Source of the DNA: Pseudomonas chlororaphis subsp. piscium
Lineage (GTDB): Bacteria; Pseudomonadota; Gammaproteobacteria; Pseudomonadales; Pseudomonadaceae
Direction: 5' to 3'
Assembly: GCF_003850345.1 (NCBI RefSeq)
Contig: NZ_CP027707.1
Coordinates: 6,067,001-6,131,000, forward strand
Length of the DNA: 64,000 bases
The notes beneath the pieces are model-generated. The model was not told the origin of the DNA. It saw only the letters and a program-made list of their open reading frames with translations, and did not search any database. This document shows positions 5,377 to 15,277 of the stretch, in pieces (the first letter of the stretch is position 1; each line of letters opens with the position of its first letter). The position numbers were made by a program, and so were the translations under genes.

Positions 5377-5390
5377 TAAGATTAGTCTTA
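5377..5390. promoter_or_regulatory. TAAGA-N4-TCTTA palindrome, copy 1 (RcsB-box-like)
   Basis: Sequence TAAGATTAGTCTTA, with perfect 5-bp arms. It is the distal copy, about 480 bp before the fimbrial subunit start. Binding by an RcsB-type regulator is inferred from the motif only. Confidence 0.4.
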
Positions 5391-5721
5391 ACTCTAAAAT
5401 AGAAGAGCCGCCTGACTTAGCCCCCACATCCAAAAGTTGCTCCCTCCGGGCGTACCGAATACATACGCCTACCTCCGCGCCACCTCTTACTGCGTTATGT
5501 AGATAGCGGGCCCGATAGTATTCAAGACGCCACTCATGCTCTATCTAGTTGCATTGATAGTTTGTCCCGCACGCTTAAACCTTCGACTAAAACCTGACCA
5601 ACACAAGGATTAACCCATTAAAAACAGCTGCTTATATAAAAAAATAGAAGATTTTGGCGGCGATCATCCCGTTTAGCTGCCGACAGGCATTCCGACAATT
5701 TTATGCTATCCGATCAAATTT

Positions 5722-5735
5722 TAAGAATCTTCTTA
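5722..5735. promoter_or_regulatory. TAAGA-N4-TCTTA palindrome, copy 2 (RcsAB-box-like)
   Basis: Sequence TAAGAATCTTCTTA, with 6-bp arms. It differs by one base from TAAGAATATTCTTA, the core I remember for the enterobacterial RcsAB box. It abuts a possible -35 element (TTGAAA). The surrounding 20 bp are nearly repeated at copy 3. Confidence 0.5.
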
Positions 5736-5798
5736 TTGAAATATTATCAGGCAAAAAAGTATTAGCAGTCATTCAAAGCCATAGAACAATCAATAGTT

Positions 5799-5812
5799 TA
5801 AGAATGGTCTTA
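5799..5812. promoter_or_regulatory. TAAGA-N4-TCTTA palindrome, copy 3 (RcsB-box-like)
   Basis: Sequence TAAGAATGGTCTTA, 77 bp centre-to-centre from copy 2 and 58 bp before the subunit ATG. Copies 2 and 3 share the extended context TTTAAGAAT-N2-TCTTATTG. Confidence 0.5.
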
Positions 5813-5870
5813 TTGTAACGACCGAAGTGAAGACACAAGATTGCACCTCCAACTTTAGCAGGTACATGAA

Positions 5871-6464
5871 ATGTCCAAACTTCTCAAAAGCATCATCTCC
5901 ATGGCTATCGCTGGCGCGGTCAGCACTTCCGCTCTCGCGGCAGATGGCACTATCAACTTCACCGGTGACATCGTCGCCGCCTCCTGCAAAATCGACGGCG
6001 GTTCCGGCACCAACGTTGGTGGTGAAAAGGGCAAGCAGAACATCGACGTCAACCTCGGCAAGGTCAGCAGCGACTCGCTCGCTGGCTCCGCAGAAGGCGG
6101 CATCGTCGGCGGTAAGGGCATCAACCTGAACCTGGATTGCGGCGGCACCGCAGAGGGCCTGAAGTCCGTCAAGCTGCAGTTCGACCCGATGAGTGGCTCC
6201 GGCATCGACAGCAAGAACGTCTCGCTGCTGAAAGTCACCGGTGGCGCAGAAGGCGTGGGTATCGGTCTTTACAACAGCAGCAACAAGCTGGTGAACCTCG
6301 GCGCGAACGAAACCATCGATGGCGCACTGGTAGCAAACAAAGAAGGTGAAACCACCACCTACACCGCCAACCTGAACCTGCGTGCAGGTTATGTGGCGAA
6401 CGGCTCGCCGATCAAAGCAGGTCCTGCGAACGGCACCCTGCCGTTTACCTTGACTTACGAGTAA
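5871..6464 (+). CDS. Chaperone-usher fimbrial major subunit
   Basis: 197 residues, secreted pilin of the type 1 (FimA-like) class. A signal peptide ends at about residue 23 (STSALA). The mature N-terminus (ADGTINFTGDIVAASC) has the alternating hydrophobic pattern of a donor strand. Two cysteines (C39 and C90) would form the conserved disulfide of the pilin Ig fold. The C-terminus (LPFTLTYE) ends in a beta strand with a penultimate Tyr, the usual chaperone-recognition motif. It is first in a three-gene operon with chaperone and usher; 50 bp separate it from the chaperone gene. No second pilin or adhesin is present, so this subunit may form the whole fibre. It probably belongs to a Cup-like system, but I cannot assign a named one. 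Confidence 0.87.
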   Translation: MSKLLKSIISMAIAGAVSTSALAADGTINFTGDIVAASCKIDGGSGTNVGGEKGKQNIDVNLGKVSSDSLAGSAEGGIVGGKGINLNLDCGGTAEGLKSVKLQFDPMSGSGIDSKNVSLLKVTGGAEGVGIGLYNSSNKLVNLGANETIDGALVANKEGETTTYTANLNLRAGYVANGSPIKAGPANGTLPFTLTYE

Positions 6465-6514
6465 CCCGCGCCAAAGGGAGGGGCCTGCGCCCCTCCCTCC
6501 GACCTGGAGCCGCT

Positions 6515-7240
6515 ATGAAAGCCTCACTATTGACACGTCTTGCGCTCGCCAGCGCGATGACGCTTTTTGCGTCGATGGCCAGTGCCGGCATTACGCTGGA
6601 TGGCACACGCGTCATCTTCGCTGCGCCAGCCAAGGAAACGTCCGTCGTCGTCAGGAACCAAGGCTCGAATGACATCATGGTCCAGTCCTGGGTCGAGCCA
6701 GACACCAACGGGCCCGCGACCGACGTACCGTTCGCCATTACCCCTCCCCTGGTTCGCCTTGGAGGCAACAAGCAGCAGATCCTGCGCATCCTCTATCAAG
6801 GCCAGGGGCTGCCTACCGACAAGGAATCCGTGTTCTGGCTGGCCGTGCAGGAGATTCCGCAAAAAGCCAAGGACGAGAACACTCTGCAGATCGCCATACG
6901 GCAGCGCGTGAAACTGTTCTACCGCCCGGCCAACCTGCCGGACACCGCGGCGAATGCAGCCAAGAGCCTGCAATGGAAGCTGGTGGAACAAAACGGCAAA
7001 GCCGCGCTTTCCGTGACCAACCCTTCCGCGTACCACGTGTCCTTTTCTGGTAGCACCGTGACGCTGCGCAATGGCAAGGACAAGGGCACCGCCACCGCAG
7101 AAATGCTGGCACCAGGAGCAACACGCACCGTCGAGATCAAAGGCTCGGCTGGCATGAGGTCCGGAGCCACAACAGTGGAATTCGACAGCATCAACGATTA
7201 CGGCGGGCTGGACCGAGTCACCAGCAAACTTTCCAACTAA
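6515..7240 (+). CDS. Periplasmic fimbrial chaperone, PapD/FimC family
   Basis: 241 residues. A signal peptide ends at about residue 24 (FASMASA), then two Ig-like domains. Family features are visible: the Arg in GTRVIF and the Lys in RQRVKLFYRP that anchor the subunit C-terminus, and the ESVFWLAVQEIP segment of domain 1. The chaperone folds and caps fimbrial subunits in the periplasm by donor-strand complementation and hands them to the usher encoded next (109 bp downstream). An upstream GACCTGGAG can serve as ribosome binding site. Confidence 0.9.
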   Translation: MKASLLTRLALASAMTLFASMASAGITLDGTRVIFAAPAKETSVVVRNQGSNDIMVQSWVEPDTNGPATDVPFAITPPLVRLGGNKQQILRILYQGQGLPTDKESVFWLAVQEIPQKAKDENTLQIAIRQRVKLFYRPANLPDTAANAAKSLQWKLVEQNGKAALSVTNPSAYHVSFSGSTVTLRNGKDKGTATAEMLAPGATRTVEIKGSAGMRSGATTVEFDSINDYGGLDRVTSKLSN

Positions 7241-7349
7241 CGGAAAACAGCCATCACTCGTGTCGCTCGCTAGAGCGCACCGCTTTATCTCCGACTTTTT
7301 AATCAGGTCAGTGCCTCGGACATCCGATGCACGATCGAAAGGATTCCGC

Positions 7350-9842
7350 ATGCCCATTCTTCAGAGAGAGCTCAGCTTCAGGATCGCCCGACGGGCGTGC
7401 GCGACCTGCCTCATGGCACTGGGGCTGGCCTCGAAGCTGTCCGCCGCAGAGGCCGAGTTCGCCGACTCCTTTCTGAAAATGGAGGGCACTCCGGTGGACC
7501 TCAAGTTTTTTGAGAAAGGCAGTGCAGTTCCGCCAGGCACCTACAGCGTTGACCTCTACCTGAACAACGTGCTGATCAAGCGCCAGGAAATCACCTTCGC
7601 CGCCGATGCCTCCGGACAGGTCAAACCCGCCATCTCGCTCGGGCTGCTCAAAGAGCTTGGACTCAACGCGGGCAAAGCCCAGCAGGATGGACTCATCGCC
7701 GCGGACGCCAAGGATGAGCAGCCGTTCGACGTCAGCGCCCAGATCGCCGGCGCCGCGGTGGACTTCGACGTCACCAACCTGGCATTGCAGTTCAGCATTC
7801 CGCAGGCATACGTCCAGCGTTATTCCCGCGGTTACGTCGACCCATCGGTTTGGGACGACGGCATCACGGCCTTCTACAGCGACTACCAGGCCAACTTCAA
7901 CCGCAATACCAACCAGGGCAGGAAGAGCGACTACCACAACCTGAACCTGCGCAACGGTTTCAATATCGCCGGCTGGCGCTTTCGCAACGAATCCGCCTTG
8001 ACCGGCGGTACCGGTACAAAAAGCGAGTTCAAGAGCAACCGCACCTATCTGGAGCGCGATGTCCGGCGCCTGAAAGGCAAGCTTTCCCTGGGCGAGCTGT
8101 ACACCCCAGGCGAGATCTTCGACAGCGTGCGTTTTCGCGGTGCACAGATCGCTTCGGACCTCGGTATGCTGCCTGACAACGAGATCGGCTACGCGCCCGT
8201 GATCCGTGGCATCGCTGAATCCAATGCCACTGTAGAAGTACGGCAAAACGGCTACGTGATCTATTCCGCGTCGGTGCCGCCTGGCGCCTTCGAGTTCACT
8301 GACATCTATCCCAGCGGTTCCAACGGTGACCTGCAGATCAAGATCATCGAAGCAGATGGCCGGGTACGCGAATATCAGCAGTCCTATGCCTACCAGCCGG
8401 TCATGACCCGGCGCGGCAACCTTCGCTACAGCGTCACCGCCGGTGAATATCGCTCCAACGACCAACCGTCGCCGTCGTTCACCCAGGGCACAGCCGTCTA
8501 CGGTGTGACCGATAACCTCACCGGTTATGGCGGCGCGCTGCTCGCGCAAGACTATCGCGCCGTCAACATTGGTGCGGGCGTGAACTCCAGCCTCGGCGGT
8601 ATTTCTTTCGACGTCACCAGCAGTGAATCGAAGACCCAGAACGGCAGGAGCAACAAGGGTCACAGTGCGCGCTTCCTGTACTCCAAGACGCTGAACGCCA
8701 CCGATACCACCTTCACCATGGCCGGCTACCGCTATTCCACCGAAGGCTATCGCAGCTTCAGCCAGCACGTGGACGACCTCATGTATCAGGACCGTGCCGG
8801 CTTCAGCGCCCAAAAGAGCCGAATCAACCTCCGGGTGAACCAGAGCCTGTCACAACGAGGCTCGTTGTACCTCAGCATGGATGAAACCAACTACTGGAAT
8901 CAGCAGGGCCGTACGCGTAACTGGCAATTTGGTTATGGCAGCAGCATTGCCAGCGTCAGCTACAACCTGGCGGTGTCACGCACCCAGAGCGACCCCATGA
9001 ACGGTGGTTCGGATACACAACTTACCGCCAGCATCAGCCTGCCGCTGGGAGGGAGAAGCAGTTCTCACCGCCTCTCCAGCAACGCCATCAGCTCGAGCAA
9101 GGGCGACTCCTCGCTGCAGTCGAACGTGTCCGGCTACCTGGACGACCAGGCCACCCTCAGCTACTCGGCACAGGCCGGCCACAGCAAAAGAAACGGCAGT
9201 ACAGCCGGCGCCGGCCTGGACTGGGATACCCCCGTCGCCAAGCTGCGTGGTGGCTACAGCCAGGGTCGCGATGACAAGCATATCGACCTGGGTGCTTCTG
9301 GTTCCCTGCTGGTGCATAGCGGTGGAATCACCCTTGGCCAGCCACTTGGCGAGACCTTCGGCCTACTGGAAGTTCCAGATGTCGATGGCGTCGGGGTATC
9401 CGGCTGGAACGGCGTACGCACCAATGGTAAGGGTTACGCGGTGGTGCCCTATATGCAGCCTTATCGCTACAACTGGGTGAACCTGGACACCCAGACCCTG
9501 GGGACCGATACCGAGATCAACGAAACCTCCAAGGTGCTGGTGCCGACCCGTGGCGCCATCGTCAAGACAACTTACGCCGCACAGACCGGTCGCCGCCTGC
9601 AGTTCGTCCTGCGCGCGGAGCAAGGCAGCACCATCCCCTTCGGCGCCCAAGGGTACGACGAGGAAGGCAAGCCCCTGGGTATGGTCGACAACCTGTCGCG
9701 CCTGCTGGTCTTCGGCGTTGCCGACAAGGGCCGACTGGAGATTCGCTGGGCCGAGGGCTCCTGCACAGTGGACTACACACTACCGGCAGCAAACAAGGAA
9801 TTGGCTTACGAACGCGTGGATGGCCTTTGCCGGGCTTTGTGA
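7350..9842 (+). CDS. Outer-membrane fimbrial usher, PapC/FimD family
   Basis: 830 residues. The signal peptide lies at about residues 10-30, followed by the N-terminal chaperone-binding domain (FADSFLKMEGTPVDLKFFEKG...GTYSVDLYLNN), a 24-strand beta-barrel region with plug, and C-terminal domains that include GAQGYDEEGKPLGMVDNLSR and end with a Cys pair (EGSCTVDY, DGLC). The usher forms the outer-membrane pore through which subunits are secreted and polymerised. I chose ATG 7350 because AAAGGA lies just upstream and the protein then begins with a short basic stretch and a hydrophobic core; an in-frame GTG at 7260 would add 30 unlikely residues. It is the last gene of the cluster. A GC hairpin (about 9853-9872) without a T run follows, and the 9873-10057 stretch shows no adhesin or other gene. 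Confidence 0.9.
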   Translation: MPILQRELSFRIARRACATCLMALGLASKLSAAEAEFADSFLKMEGTPVDLKFFEKGSAVPPGTYSVDLYLNNVLIKRQEITFAADASGQVKPAISLGLLKELGLNAGKAQQDGLIAADAKDEQPFDVSAQIAGAAVDFDVTNLALQFSIPQAYVQRYSRGYVDPSVWDDGITAFYSDYQANFNRNTNQGRKSDYHNLNLRNGFNIAGWRFRNESALTGGTGTKSEFKSNRTYLERDVRRLKGKLSLGELYTPGEIFDSVRFRGAQIASDLGMLPDNEIGYAPVIRGIAESNATVEVRQNGYVIYSASVPPGAFEFTDIYPSGSNGDLQIKIIEADGRVREYQQSYAYQPVMTRRGNLRYSVTAGEYRSNDQPSPSFTQGTAVYGVTDNLTGYGGALLAQDYRAVNIGAGVNSSLGGISFDVTSSESKTQNGRSNKGHSARFLYSKTLNATDTTFTMAGYRYSTEGYRSFSQHVDDLMYQDRAGFSAQKSRINLRVNQSLSQRGSLYLSMDETNYWNQQGRTRNWQFGYGSSIASVSYNLAVSRTQSDPMNGGSDTQLTASISLPLGGRSSSHRLSSNAISSSKGDSSLQSNVSGYLDDQATLSYSAQAGHSKRNGSTAGAGLDWDTPVAKLRGGYSQGRDDKHIDLGASGSLLVHSGGITLGQPLGETFGLLEVPDVDGVGVSGWNGVRTNGKGYAVVPYMQPYRYNWVNLDTQTLGTDTEINETSKVLVPTRGAIVKTTYAAQTGRRLQFVLRAEQGSTIPFGAQGYDEEGKPLGMVDNLSRLLVFGVADKGRLEIRWAEGSCTVDYTLPAANKELAYERVDGLCRAL

Positions 9843-10897: not shown

Positions 10898-13462
10898 TCA
10901 GGCGAAGACGATTTCGTCGTTTTCCACCTTGGCCGTCACAGTGGCCCCCGGCAGGAAACTGCCAGACAGAATCAACTGCGCCAGCGGGTTCTCGATCCAG
11001 CGCTGGATCGCTCGCTTGAGCGGACGCGCGCCATAGACCGGGTCGTAACCCACGGCAATCAGTTTGTCCAAGGCCTCGCCACTCAGCTCCAGCTTGAGCT
11101 CGCGCTCGGCCAGCCGGCCACGCAGGCGACCCAACTGGATCTCGGTGATGCCGGCGATCTGATCCCGGGCCAATGGCTCGAAGATCACCACTTCGTCGAT
11201 CCGGTTGATGAACTCCGGACGGAAATGGGTCGACACCGCATCCATCACCGCCGCCCGCTGGGCTTCGCGATCCCCTACCAGCTCCTGGATCTGCGCCGAA
11301 CCCAGATTGGAGGTCATGACGATCACCGTATTACGGAAATCCACGGTACGCCCATGACTGTCCGTCAGGCGGCCGTCTTCCAACACCTGCAGCAGAATGT
11401 TGAACACGTCTGGATGGGCCTTCTCGACCTCGTCCAGCAGGATCACCGAATAAGGCTTACGCCGCACCGCCTCGGTCAGGTAACCGCCCTCCTCGTAGCC
11501 GACGTAGCCTGGAGGCGCGCCGATCAACCGAGCCACGGAATGTTTCTCCATGAATTCGGACATATCGATCCGCACCATCGCCTCTTCGGTATCGAAAAGG
11601 AATTCGGCCAGCGCCTTGCACAGCTCGGTTTTACCCACACCAGTCGGGCCGAGGAACATGAACGAGCCACTTGGCCGGTTCGGATCGGACAACCCGGCGC
11701 GGGAACGCCGCACGGCGTTGGCCACCGCCACCACGGCTTCGTTCTGGCCGATGACGCGCTGGTGCAGCAGGCTTTCCATTTTCAGCAGTTTGTCACGCTC
11801 GCCTTCGAGCATCTTCGACACCGGAATACCGGTCCACTTGGACACGACTTCGGCGATTTCCTCTTCGGTCACCTTGCTGCGCAACAGCTGGTTCTCGCTT
11901 TGGCCATGCTGGTCGACCATCTGCAGGCTGCGTTCCAGGTCCGGGATCACCCCGTACTGCAACTCGGCCATGCGGTTCAGGTCGCCCTTGCGGCGCGCGG
12001 CTTCCAGTTCCTGACGGGACTGCTCGATTTTCTGCTGAATCTGCGCCGAACCCTGCACTTCGGCTTTCTCCGAGGCCCAGACTTCTTCCAGATCGGCGTA
12101 TTCGCGCTCCAGGCGGGTGATCTCTTCCTGGAGTTTCTCCAGGCGCTTGATCGCCGCTTCGTCGTCTTCCTTCTTCAGGGCCTGGGATTCAACCTTCAGT
12201 TGAATCAGGCGCCGCTCCAGACGGTCCAGCACCTCCGGCTTGGAGTCGATCTCCATGCGGATACGGCTGGCGGCTTCGTCGATCAGGTCGATCGCCTTGT
12301 CCGGCAGCTGCCGGTCGGTAATGTAGCGATGGCTGAGCTTGGCCGCGGCAATGATCGCGCCGTCGGTGATCGCCACCTTGTGGTGCACCTCATAACGCTC
12401 CTTCAGGCCACGCAGGATGGCGATGGTGTCTTCTTCGCTCGGCTCATCCACTAGGACTTTCTGGAAGCGCCGCTCGAGGGCTGCGTCCTTCTCTATATAT
12501 TGGCGGTACTCGTTGAGCGTGGTGGCGCCGACGCAATGCAGCTCGCCCCGGGCCAGGGCCGGCTTGAGCATGTTGCCCGCATCCATCGAACCTTCGCCCT
12601 TACCGGCGCCGACCATGGTGTGCAGTTCGTCGATGAACAGAATGATCTGCCCTTCCTGCTTGGACAGCTCGTTGAGCAGGGATTTCAGGCGTTCTTCGAA
12701 CTCGCCGCGGTACTTGGCACCAGCGATCAGCGCGCCCATGTCCAGGGACAGCAGGCGCTTGCCTTTCAGGCCGTCCGGCACTTCGCCATTGATGATGCGC
12801 TGGGCCAGGCCTTCGGCAATCGCGGTTTTACCCACGCCAGGCTCACCGATCAGCACCGGGTTATTCTTGGTCCGACGCTGCAGCACCTGGATGGTCCGAC
12901 GGATTTCGTCGTCACGGCCAATCACCGGGTCGAGCTTGCCGTCTTCGGCGCGCTTGGTCAGGTCGACGGTGTATTTATCCAGGGCCTGGCGCGACTCCTC
13001 GACGTTGGCGTCATTCACCGCCTCGCCGCCACGCAGGTTATTGATCGCATTTTCCAGCGCTTTCTTGCTGACACCCTGGCCCAGCAGCAATTTGCCGAGC
13101 TTGCTGTTTTCGTCCATGGCCGCCAGCAGCACCAGCTCGCTGGAGATGAACTGGTCGCCTTTCTGTTGCGCCAGGCGATCGGCCTGGTTCAGCAGGCGCG
13201 CCAGATCCTGCGACATATTCACGTCGCCGGTGGGGTTCTGGATTTTTGGCAAGTGATCGAGCTCTTTGCTCAACTCCTTGCGCAGGCTGTTCACGTCGAA
13301 GCCCACTTGCATCAGTAGCGGCTTGATCGAACCGCCCTGCTGTTCGAGCAGGGCCTGCATCAAGTGTGCAGGCTCGATGGCCGGATGATCGAGGCCGACC
13401 GCCAGGGATTGAGAGTCGGATAATGCCAGCTGCAGCTTGCTGGTTAATCGGTCTATACGCAT
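10898..13462 (-). CDS. clpB: ATP-dependent disaggregase ClpB
   Basis: 854 residues, the usual length. A hexameric AAA+ chaperone that, with DnaK, threads proteins out of aggregates after heat stress. Domains in order: Clp N-domain (1-150), first ATPase (Walker A GEPGVGKT near 206, Walker B ILFIDE), the long coiled-coil M domain (about 410-525, recognisable by heptads such as [20 protein letters not shown]), second ATPase (GPTGVGKTE near 606) and the C-terminal domain. The start codon ATG at 13462 has AAGGAAGG upstream. A sigma-32-type promoter lies about 75-100 bp upstream. Confidence 0.97.
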
Positions 13463-13534
13463 TAGTCACCTTCCTTTTGAGCAGGTCGGAGCGATGGACA
13501 CACCTAAATAGAGAAACCTGCCAGATACCCCTGT

Positions 13535-13562
13535 AGATGCGGTCGATTCTGGAAGATTCAAG
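13535..13562 (-). promoter_or_regulatory. Sigma-32 (heat-shock) promoter of clpB
   Basis: On the minus strand CTTGAAT, 13 bp, then CCGCATCT. This fits the RpoH consensus CTTGAAA-N11-16-CCCCATNT with one mismatch in each element, and it lies about 75 bp upstream of the clpB start, as expected for this gene. Confidence 0.75.
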
Positions 13563-13592
13563 CCTGTCGAGCTTGACACAGGTCAGAAGAGT

Positions 13593-14318
13593 CTAGCGTT
13601 CCAGCCAGATCAGGGAAGCGAAGCGCCCGGTACGCGAGCTGCGGCGGTAGGAATAGAAACGTGGATCGCTCACAGTGCAGAAACCACCGCCATACACGGC
13701 CGTGACGCCGTATGCCGCCAGGCGCAGGCGGGCCAGTGTATAGATGTCAGCCATGAGCTTGCCGGGATTGTGGCTCGGCACAAAGGCCTGATCGGTTTGC
13801 GGCAGGTGCCGGACGAACGCGTCACGGACTTCCGGCCCGACCTCGAAGGCTTGCGGACCGATGGCCGGCCCCAGCCAGACCAGTACATCCTCAGGCGCAA
13901 CCTTCAGGCTATCGAGTGTCGCCTCCAGCACCCCGGCCGCCAACCCGCGCCAGCCGGCATGGGCCGCTGCCACACGAGTACCGGCGCGGTCGCAGAACAG
14001 CGCCGGCAAGCAATCGGCGGTCATGGCGCTACAGGCGATGCCCGGCGTGGCCGTCCAGCTGGCATCGGCGGTGGCGACGACGAACGGATCCGCCTCGACC
14101 ACATCAATGCCGTGAACCTGCTTCAGCCAGGCTGGCTCTATAGAGAAACGATCGGTCAGGCGACGGCGGTTTTCGGCCACCGCCTCTGGGTTGTCATCGA
14201 CATGATCGCCCAGGTTGAGGCTGTCGAACGGCGCCAGGCTGACGCCGCCCGCACGGGTGGTGACGCAGGCTTTGACCCCGGCCGGCGCGGGCCAGTCAGG
14301 AATCAGCCAGTCACTCAT
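13593..14318 (-). CDS. pgeF: Peptidoglycan editing factor / purine nucleoside phosphorylase family (YfiH)
   Basis: 241 residues, cytoplasmic, of the Cu-oxidase_4/YfiH family. Members remove nucleosides or wrongly incorporated L-Ser from muropeptide precursors; which activity dominates in Pseudomonas is not settled by sequence. Metal-site residues expected for the family are visible: His in KQVHGIDV (about 71), Cys in MTADCLPALF (about 107), His in VAAAHAGWRG (about 124) and the GGGFCTVSDPRFYSYRR tail. The start overlaps the rluD stop by four bases, so it is translationally coupled to rluD. Confidence 0.9.
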   Translation of the reverse strand: MSDWLIPDWPAPAGVKACVTTRAGGVSLAPFDSLNLGDHVDDNPEAVAENRRRLTDRFSIEPAWLKQVHGIDVVEADPFVVATADASWTATPGIACSAMTADCLPALFCDRAGTRVAAAHAGWRGLAAGVLEATLDSLKVAPEDVLVWLGPAIGPQAFEVGPEVRDAFVRHLPQTDQAFVPSHNPGKLMADIYTLARLRLAAYGVTAVYGGGFCTVSDPRFYSYRRSSRTGRFASLIWLER

Positions 14319-15277
14319 CCGACAAAGGCCTCGCGATCCTGCTTGAGCAGGGTCAGCAGCCAGACGAAGTCTTCCGGCAGCGGCGATTCCCAGCTCATGC
14401 GTTCACCAGTGGTCGGATGATCCAGCTCCAGGAAACGCGCATGCAGCGCCTGACGCGGGAAGTGTTTCAGGGATTCGACCATGGTCGGGTTCGCCGCCGG
14501 CGGAATGCGGAAGCGACCGCCGTAGGCCGGATCGCCGACCAACGGGAAGTTGATGTGCGCCATGTGCACGCGAATCTGGTGGGTACGACCGGTTTCCAGC
14601 TTGACCCGCACATGGGTGTGGGAACGGAAACGCTCGAGCACGCGGTAATGGCTGACGGCCTGCTTGCCACCTTCCATCACGGCCATGCGCTGGCGCTGCT
14701 GGCCATGCCGGCCGATCGGCGCATTGATCTTGCCACCGGCGGTGACCACGCCGATCACGATGCATTCATAGATGCGGCTGACGCTGCGGTTCTGCAACTG
14801 GGCAACCAGCTGGGTCTGCGCCTGAATGGTCTTGGCCACCACCATCAGACCGGTGGTGTCCTTGTCCAGGCGGTGGACGATGCCGGCGCGCGGCACATTG
14901 ATGATGTCCGGGACATGGTGCAGCAGGGCGTTGAGCAGCGTGCCATCGGCGTGACCGGCGGCGGGGTGGACCACCAGGCCGGCAGGCTTGTTGATGACCA
15001 GGATATCGTCGTCTTCATAGACGATATCCAGCTCGATGTCCTGAGCGATCCATTCTCCCTGAGCTTCCTGCTCGGCGGTCAGCTCAAGAACCGCGCCGCC
15101 ATGGACGATGTCTCGCGGGCGGATAACCGCTCCATCCACAGTCAGGCGGCCGTCTTTGATCCAGGCGGAAAGGCGCGAGCGCGAGTGCTCAGCGAATAAT
15201 TGGGCGGCGACTTGATCGAGGCGTTGGCCGCCCAGTTCGGACGGCACCTCTGCGCGAAGTTCAATTTTATCGGACAT
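14315..15277 (-). CDS. rluD: 23S rRNA pseudouridine synthase RluD
   Basis: 320 residues. It makes pseudouridines in helix 69 of 23S rRNA (positions 1911, 1915 and 1917 in E. coli). It has an N-terminal S4 RNA-binding domain (QRLDQVAAQLF...SRLSAWIKDGRLTVDG) followed by the RluA-type catalytic domain with GIVHRLDKDTTG, whose Asp (D138) is the nucleophile, and GRTHQIRVHMAHI. I chose ATG 15277 (MSDKIELRAEVPSEL) over an in-frame GTG at 15298, because family members begin this way. bamD is divergent, sharing a ~150-bp intergenic region, and pgeF follows in the same operon. Confidence 0.95.
   Translation of the reverse strand: MSDKIELRAEVPSELGGQRLDQVAAQLFAEHSRSRLSAWIKDGRLTVDGAVIRPRDIVHGGAVLELTAEQEAQGEWIAQDIELDIVYEDDDILVINKPAGLVVHPAAGHADGTLLNALLHHVPDIINVPRAGIVHRLDKDTTGLMVVAKTIQAQTQLVAQLQNRSVSRIYECIVIGVVTAGGKINAPIGRHGQQRQRMAVMEGGKQAVSHYRVLERFRSHTHVRVKLETGRTHQIRVHMAHINFPLVGDPAYGGRFRIPPAANPTMVESLKHFPRQALHARFLELDHPTTGERMSWESPLPEDFVWLLTLLKQDREAFVG

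Follow-up and report, generated by a model that had tools for sequence, protein, structure and literature searches.

The chaperone-usher fimbriae encoded in the DNA analysed here, a stretch of 64,000 bases of the Pseudomonas chlororaphis subsp. piscium genome that we call the window, are in our opinion likely to be under CupD-like control. Their putative operators, two RcsB-type palindromes in the leader of the fimbrial genes (boxes 2 and 3), would be used in trans by an unlinked PvrSR-RcsCB operon, which would act mainly through box 3. Comparison at the sequence level brings out the boxes, their footprint in orthologous leaders, the operon itself, a recognition helix common to its RcsB and to related RcsB proteins, and a further box at the start of the operon.

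The initial annotation had pointed to three copies of the palindrome TAAGA-N4-TCTTA upstream of the subunit gene, and a scan of the window found all of them as exact matches. Box 1, TAAGATTAGTCTTA (5377..5390, no strand assigned), lies 494 bp before the ATG, has no TTG immediately 3' and is of doubtful status. The distal box 2, TAAGAATCTTCTTA (5722..5735, + strand), and the proximal box 3, TAAGAATGGTCTTA (5799..5812, + strand), start 149 and 72 bp before the ATG, respectively; as already noticed, their starts are 77 bp apart and they have the flanks TTTAAGAAT..TCTTATTG in common. The window holds exactly these three matches (expected number 0.00, 100 shuffles) and no other site within one arm mismatch, in agreement with the earlier impression that there was no further copy. 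Dinucleotide shuffling of the 646-base leader, whose G+C content is 44% vs 62% for the window, gave a mean of 0.00145 matches in 20,000 trials, with at least one match in 29 of them and at least two in none. The pattern is not scattered at random over the single-contig genome of 7,065,155 bases either, where it occurs at seven places and, read backwards, at none. The core TAAG-N6-CTTA by itself is not enriched (20 places vs 37 backwards), thus the rare element is the complete pair of TAAGA/TCTTA arms; the broader TARGA-N4-TCYTA is enriched as well, with 21 places vs 2 backwards.

Possible -35 hexamers follow directly 3' of box 2 (TTGAAA, 5736..5741, + strand) and of box 3 (TTGTAA, 5813..5818, + strand). 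The first of these is the possible -35 that the initial annotation had noticed next to box 2. A sigma-70 promoter scan passed no match on the + strand. No convincing -10 accompanies the hexamer of box 3, the candidate CAAGAT, 23 nt after the box, being poor. The search for RNA elements in the leader returned only a sub-threshold AgvB match (18.4 of 56 bits, E 0.75) in the terminator-like stretch after ndh, and a search of plasmid records with the leader gave no match. Box 2 had also been described as one base away from the RcsAB core; this is correct with respect to TAAGAATATTCTTA, but the consensus printed in PMC12388358, TAAGAATATTCCTA, is missed by two of 14 letters, and by three of 14 in box 3. 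The enterobacterial RcsAB/RcsB box, printed as TAAGAATATTCCTA or TaAGaatatTCcta (PMC12388358, PMC4325325), belongs to a homologous regulator, whereas the form in the window, TAAGAATNNTCTTA, is more symmetric. Each of boxes 2 and 3 is one of 14 letters off TAAGAATCGTCTTA, the box of rcsB-linked cup leaders described below.

Downstream of these boxes lie the genes of a fimbrial subunit (197 aa, 5871..6464, + strand, PF00419), a periplasmic pilus chaperone (241 aa, 6515..7240, + strand, PF00345 and PF02753) and an outer-membrane usher (7260..9842, + strand, PF00577, PF13954 and PF13953), all of them above the Pfam cut-offs, as is expected of a chaperone-usher cluster. The 860 aa of the usher correspond to the longest frame, and the actual start codon probably lies further inside it. 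The cluster occupies a slot between ndh and a tRNA cluster plus clpB. Orthologs in the same slot were found in P. chlororaphis PCL1601 (subunit 67%, chaperone 74% and usher 74% identical; ndh 98%, clpB 99%) and in genome G443 (61%, 72% and 70%; clpB 99%, ndh 98%). When ndh was fetched from 12 related genomes, the window genome counted, a subunit gene lay at most 1.5 kb downstream of it in three; in G433, which from its coordinates is the NFIX28 genome, and in G153 the tRNAs come directly after ndh. Other relatives of the subunit (41 of 115 genomes in one search, 33 of 37 in another) are more distant or, where examined, stand in other surroundings. Across the loci, the fimbrial proteins of 5871-9842 are 61-74% identical and the flanking ndh and clpB products 97-99%, and the slot is empty in NFIX28, which suggests that the fimbrial genes form a fast-diverging or replaced cassette adjoining tRNA genes.

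Comparison of the leader with those of related strains, proposed as a check by the initial annotation, was possible with these two orthologs besides the window. The leaders are scrambled, only 176 of 645 columns being identical across the three orthologous loci, yet both orthologs have kept boxes 2 and 3, at which 17 of 20 (5719-5738) and 16 of 20 (5796-5815) columns, respectively, are the same in all three. Box 1 did not pass this comparison: 6 of 20 columns are conserved and the box is present in one of the three loci. The starts of boxes 2 and 3 relative to the ATG are -149/-72 in the window, -151/-75 in PCL1601 and -147/-74 in G443, with spacings of 77, 76 and 73 bp. A TTG comes after each box, within TTGAAA, TTGATA and TTGAAA after box 2 and TTGTAA, TTGTCA and TTGTCC after box 3, in the same order of genomes. 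The only other conservation peak of comparable height in the leader is the terminator-like stretch after ndh. Both their letters and their conservation in orthologous leaders support boxes 2 and 3 as RcsB-type operators, with binding as a prediction.

The regulator would have to be encoded elsewhere, as the initial annotation had stated for want of an rcs gene nearby. None of the 39 GerE (LuxR-type HTH) matches of the genome falls inside the window, so that no LuxR-type regulator is encoded there, and an RcsB within a PvrSR-RcsCB operon was found 2.48 Mb away from the fimbrial genes. An RcsB-type operator with its regulator encoded at a distance is supported in the sense that it fits this sequence evidence. 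The operon (3,584,206-3,592,261 of the genome) comprises four genes in the order kinase, PvrR, Hpt kinase and RcsB: a hybrid kinase of 942 aa without Hpt, an EAL response regulator above the cut-off of the NCBIfam PvrR equivalog NF052596 (696.7 vs 580 bits), a kinase of 1078 aa with Hpt and, as the last gene, rcsB (3,591,614-3,592,261). The best solved relative of this RcsB in the PDB is RcsB (E 1.4e-43). It stays below the cut-off of the enterobacterial RcsB equivalog (170 of 235), so 'RcsB' is here a family-level name; both kinases are likewise below the enterobacterial RcsC equivalog cut-off (486.9 and 422.6 of 920). There is no fimbrial subunit gene within 1.5 kb downstream of the operon, to which we refer as the orphan operon. 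Among 931 plasmid records searched with RcsB none reached 60% identity, and no Pseudomonas appeared among the 30 matches listed.

The same orphan operon is present in PCL1601 and G443. It is also found in relatives without a fimbrial subunit gene in the ndh-clpB slot and must therefore have other targets. In all nine genomes read, a box stands 49-50 bp before the first gene of the operon; its letters are TAAGGATCGTCCTA, which departs from the arms by one letter, in four of them (among these the window genome), TAAGAATTGTCTGA in another four and TAAGAATCGTCTGA in one.

A connection between this type of regulator and this type of box is provided by loci in which the two are neighbours. A total of 398 genomes of the genus were searched with the orphan RcsB, scoring up to seven candidates per genome, and the best 30 relatives were read. 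A cup subunit gene adjoins rcsB in 22 of these 30, and a box lies between them in all 22 (19 of the form TAAGAATCGTCTTA, two TAAGAATCGTCTGA and one TAAGATTCGTCTGA); the remaining eight, without adjacent cup genes, have no box at the corresponding place. The recognition helix NRSSKTISAQKISAMRKLE occurs in six of the eight orphan RcsBs, that of the window genome among them, and in 17 of the 22 linked ones, the rest differing by one or two residues. In every one of the 22 linked leaders the box is followed 23 nt on by T-A-n-n-n-T, a geometry that would suit an activator placed just upstream of the -35; the window leader does not reproduce it, as it has CAAGAT at this distance from box 3 and GTATTA from box 2. 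On a matrix made from the 22 linked boxes, which themselves range from 22.3 to 29.4 bits, box 2 scores 24.7, box 3 23.9 and box 1 20.9 bits, and the next best site of the window 7.7 bits. The ortholog boxes are weaker on it (18.7 bits for the proximal one of PCL1601; 14.6 and 20.7 for G443). Outside the best 30, the rcsB-linked locus L267 carries TAAGAATCGTCTGA. In 12 genomes of the clade the pattern TAAGAATNNTCTKA has 1 to 8 matches per genome, and in the window genome, G115, G443 and G433 together seven of 11 such sites fall within chaperone-usher leaders. Cup loci do not have the box as a rule, since 14 of 30 fimbrial loci (L023-L052) have any site with up to two arm mismatches in the 1500 bp upstream.

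The resemblance to P. aeruginosa PA14 is close in several respects. There, a predicted operon has pvrS before pvrR and rcsC before rcsB; PvrS raises cupD expression, RcsC acts in phosphorelay and as phosphatase, RcsB requires its phospho-acceptor Asp, and overproduction of RcsB increases pvrR nearly fourfold (PMC3842833). The cupD genes and pvrS-pvrR-rcsC-rcsB of PA14 are carried on PAPI-1 (PMC3842833, PMC2696094), with the same order of regulator genes as in the orphan operon and a PvrR-type phosphodiesterase in both. Furthermore, both leaders present a pair of RcsB-type sites spaced by about 80 bp, with GAA at -158/-78 in PA14 and at -146/-69 here, a comparison by position and not base by base. 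Unlike in PA14, the operon is here 2.48 Mb from the fimbrial genes, and these are three instead of the five of cupD1-5 (PMC3842833). We thus describe the cluster of the window as CupD-like in its control but do not call it CupD, a name that goes with five genes and an adjacent regulator.

According to the mechanism that we propose, the RcsB encoded in the unlinked pvrS-pvrR-rcsC-rcsB operon would, once phosphorylated, bind box 3 as a dimer, and the same protein would also occupy box 2, 77 bp further up. From its position immediately upstream of the -35, bound RcsB would contact RNA polymerase and turn the fimbriae on. In addition, the orphan RcsB would bind the box at the start of the operon that encodes it and increase PvrR in this way; as a c-di-GMP phosphodiesterase, PvrR would limit the fimbriated state, in line with what is reported for cupD of PA14. 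Since the GAA at -78 of PA14 cupD1 is essential and that at -158 is not (PMC3842833), and the GAA of box 3 is at -69 and that of box 2 at -146, we predict that activation goes mainly through box 3, and box 2 might be auxiliary or belong to a second promoter. RcsB binding, phosphorelay, activation and feedback are all inferred from these comparisons, and so is the choice of the orphan RcsB among several, because the genome also encodes RocA1, a second RcsB (locus L018) and the RcsB-family regulators of loci L255 and L258.

That one of these other regulators acts on the leader has to be weighed. If the boxes were operators of RocA1, encoded at the roc1 locus (about 1.2513 Mb), the cluster would be Roc-controlled and cupC-like, which we consider unlikely. 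CupC is encoded by a three-gene cluster, as the fimbriae of the window are. RocA1 is RcsB-like (171.7 bits with the RcsB model, below the cut-off of 235) and conserved in PCL1601 (94%), and the roc1 junction of this genome holds one of the seven exact boxes: it contains the stop codon of the RocS-like kinase, 93 bp before the ATG of the RocR-like EAL gene. RocA1 of P. aeruginosa acts in trans on cupC, and the binding sequences of the three RocA regulators are very much alike (PMC12051241), so that the Roc systems of cupB and cupC resemble our proposal in having RcsB-family regulators acting in trans on cup genes and an EAL partner, RocR. The letters of the boxes argue against RocA1. In 80 named Pseudomonas roc1 loci (L103-L182, the best 80 of 144 found, with rocA1 at 7001 in most), the rocS-rocR junction carries TARGAN4TCYTA exactly in 73 and with at most one mismatch in all 80, and the remaining 1,138,135 positions of these loci have no exact match and 24 with at most one mismatch. 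The consensus is TA(G/A)GACNNGTC(C/T)TA, of the form TARGACNNGTCYTA, with C6 in 78 and A3 in 14 of these best 80 loci, while C6 is found in none of the seven boxes of the window and its two orthologs. On the roc1 matrix, on which roc boxes score from 5.0 to 27.1 bits, boxes 2 and 3 reach 11.3 and 13.3 bits, compared with 24.7 and 23.9 on the matrix of rcsB-linked boxes; the difference is less clear-cut for box 1, with 15.3 vs 20.9. The roc1 box would thus show the form of an RcsB-family operator in the genus in a version different from that of the window. It lies mostly 73-95 bp before the start of the rocR match, which suggests a conserved Roc operator with feedback on RocR; the best match in L179, TAGGAAAATTCCCA, may not be the true box. 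DAP-seq in P. aeruginosa lists the roc1 locus among the RocA targets (PMC12051241).

The second RcsB (L018, 4,678,761-4,679,399), whose best solved relative is also RcsB (E 1.5e-33), is encoded next to a microcin-like gene and another cup cluster, and boxes are found at its own neighbours (TAAGAATTGTCTTA, TAGGATTAATCTTA and a one-mismatch site of the TAAGAATATTCTTG type). It was our initial favourite as controller of the fimbriae, but it was demoted because PCL1601, which keeps boxes 2 and 3, has no close relative of it, the best being 38% identical. Of the 15 other genomes searched, only two, those of P. protegens 14B2 and P. spelaei, had relatives at 56-60%, and we now regard this option as improbable. 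We give little credit to binding by another LuxR-type regulator with a TAAG half-site, such as GacA, an EvgA-like fimbrial regulator or the RcsB-like proteins of L255 and L258. EvgA-type regulators do adjoin the closest unlinked homologues and have their own palindromes there (TAGGACTAGTCCTA, TAGGAATAGTCCTA, TAGGAATCATCCTA), but these have G3/C12 and the boxes of the window A3/T12. Moreover, this pairing is weak, since the best that L020 offers is two mismatches, L021 has a single one-mismatch site, and L216, L217, L219 and L221 have no box with at most one mismatch. The consensus of GacA is TGTAAGN6CTTACA, and all seven boxes of the window and its orthologs miss three or four of its 12 letters; this, together with the unenriched TAAG-N6-CTTA core, makes GacA disfavoured. 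Finally, palindromes might arise by chance in so AT-rich a leader, which may well explain box 1. As the origin of boxes 2 and 3, chance is hardly credible and we consider it ruled out by the leader shuffles, none of which gave two matches, and by the footprint, with two boxes in register in all three orthologs. Control by the orphan PvrSR-RcsCB operon is the reading that we retain.

The genome contains related sites at other loci. Besides the roc1 junction, the exact sites outside the window are located before a double-glycine, microcin-like frame (named by eye) near the second RcsB-like gene and the second cup cluster, before the gene of a MocR-type (GntR/aminotransferase) regulator and at the 5' end of a gene of PadR type; two of the four are at loci of RcsB-family regulators. 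At L018:6300-6760 (about 4.6743-4.6748 Mb), next to the second RcsB, TAAGAATTGTCTTA precedes a type I export operon and the microcin-like frame. The RcsC-like kinase adjoining this RcsB (L018:11429-14760) reads as two frames that overlap (11429-13612 and 13285-14760), perhaps because of a frameshift. Five of the 21 TARGAN4TCYTA sites, all of them TAGGA-N4-TCCTA, adjoin VgrG-type type VI secretion genes (Phage_GPD domain in five of five), at 855447, 2653257, 2823259, 4917536 and 4956379 (L222, L226, L227, L232 and L233), and may be under one common regulator. Boxes also occur at pilus-chaperone loci elsewhere: TAGGAATCGTCCTA at L257:5269 (genome 1565268; PapD domains), TAAGAATCCTCTTA at L371:7118 in PCL1601 and TAAGAATCCTCTGA at L370:8188 in G443.

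A wider reading, which we put forward tentatively and with considerable doubt, is that TARGA-N4-TCYTA is a Pseudomonas-wide operator of the RcsB family in which positions 3, 6 and 12 would act as an address: A3/A6/T12 for cup-type RcsB, mostly G3/C6/C12 for RocA1 and G3/C12 for EvgA-like regulators. In this clade, such a code would let the orphan PvrSR-RcsCB drive unlinked fimbriae, and the wider sites would extend to VgrG-type type VI spike genes, a second pilus-chaperone locus and a microcin-like gene, as one family of surface-lifestyle switches. We lowered our confidence in the code somewhat because the rcsB-linked loci L070 and L071, outside the best 30, carry TAGGAATCGTCTGA with G3.

It is established that cup fimbriae are controlled by RcsB-family regulators, in trans too in the case of RocA1 and cupC, and the mechanism is known from P. 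aeruginosa. Regarding an unlinked pair of PvrSR-RcsCB and cup genes, none was found in titles and abstract openings among the papers listed from the open-licence literature on P. chlororaphis and on PvrR/RcsB; in passages of one of these papers (PMC3390384), chaperone-usher clusters are mentioned for strain SS101 only. The footprint and the predicted partner of a fimbrial leader are new in the sense that these searches of the open-licence literature did not find them in print.

We think that the value of this analysis lies in matching, by means of the operator sequence, a fimbrial cluster and a two-component operon that are both orphans, a pairing that would yield predictions testable at the level of single bases. 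The clade is mostly plant- and soil-associated, and adhesion matters in these habitats. Moreover, the roc1 box, present in 73 of 80 species-level loci (best 80 of 144), could be used to seek targets of RcsB-family regulators across the genus.
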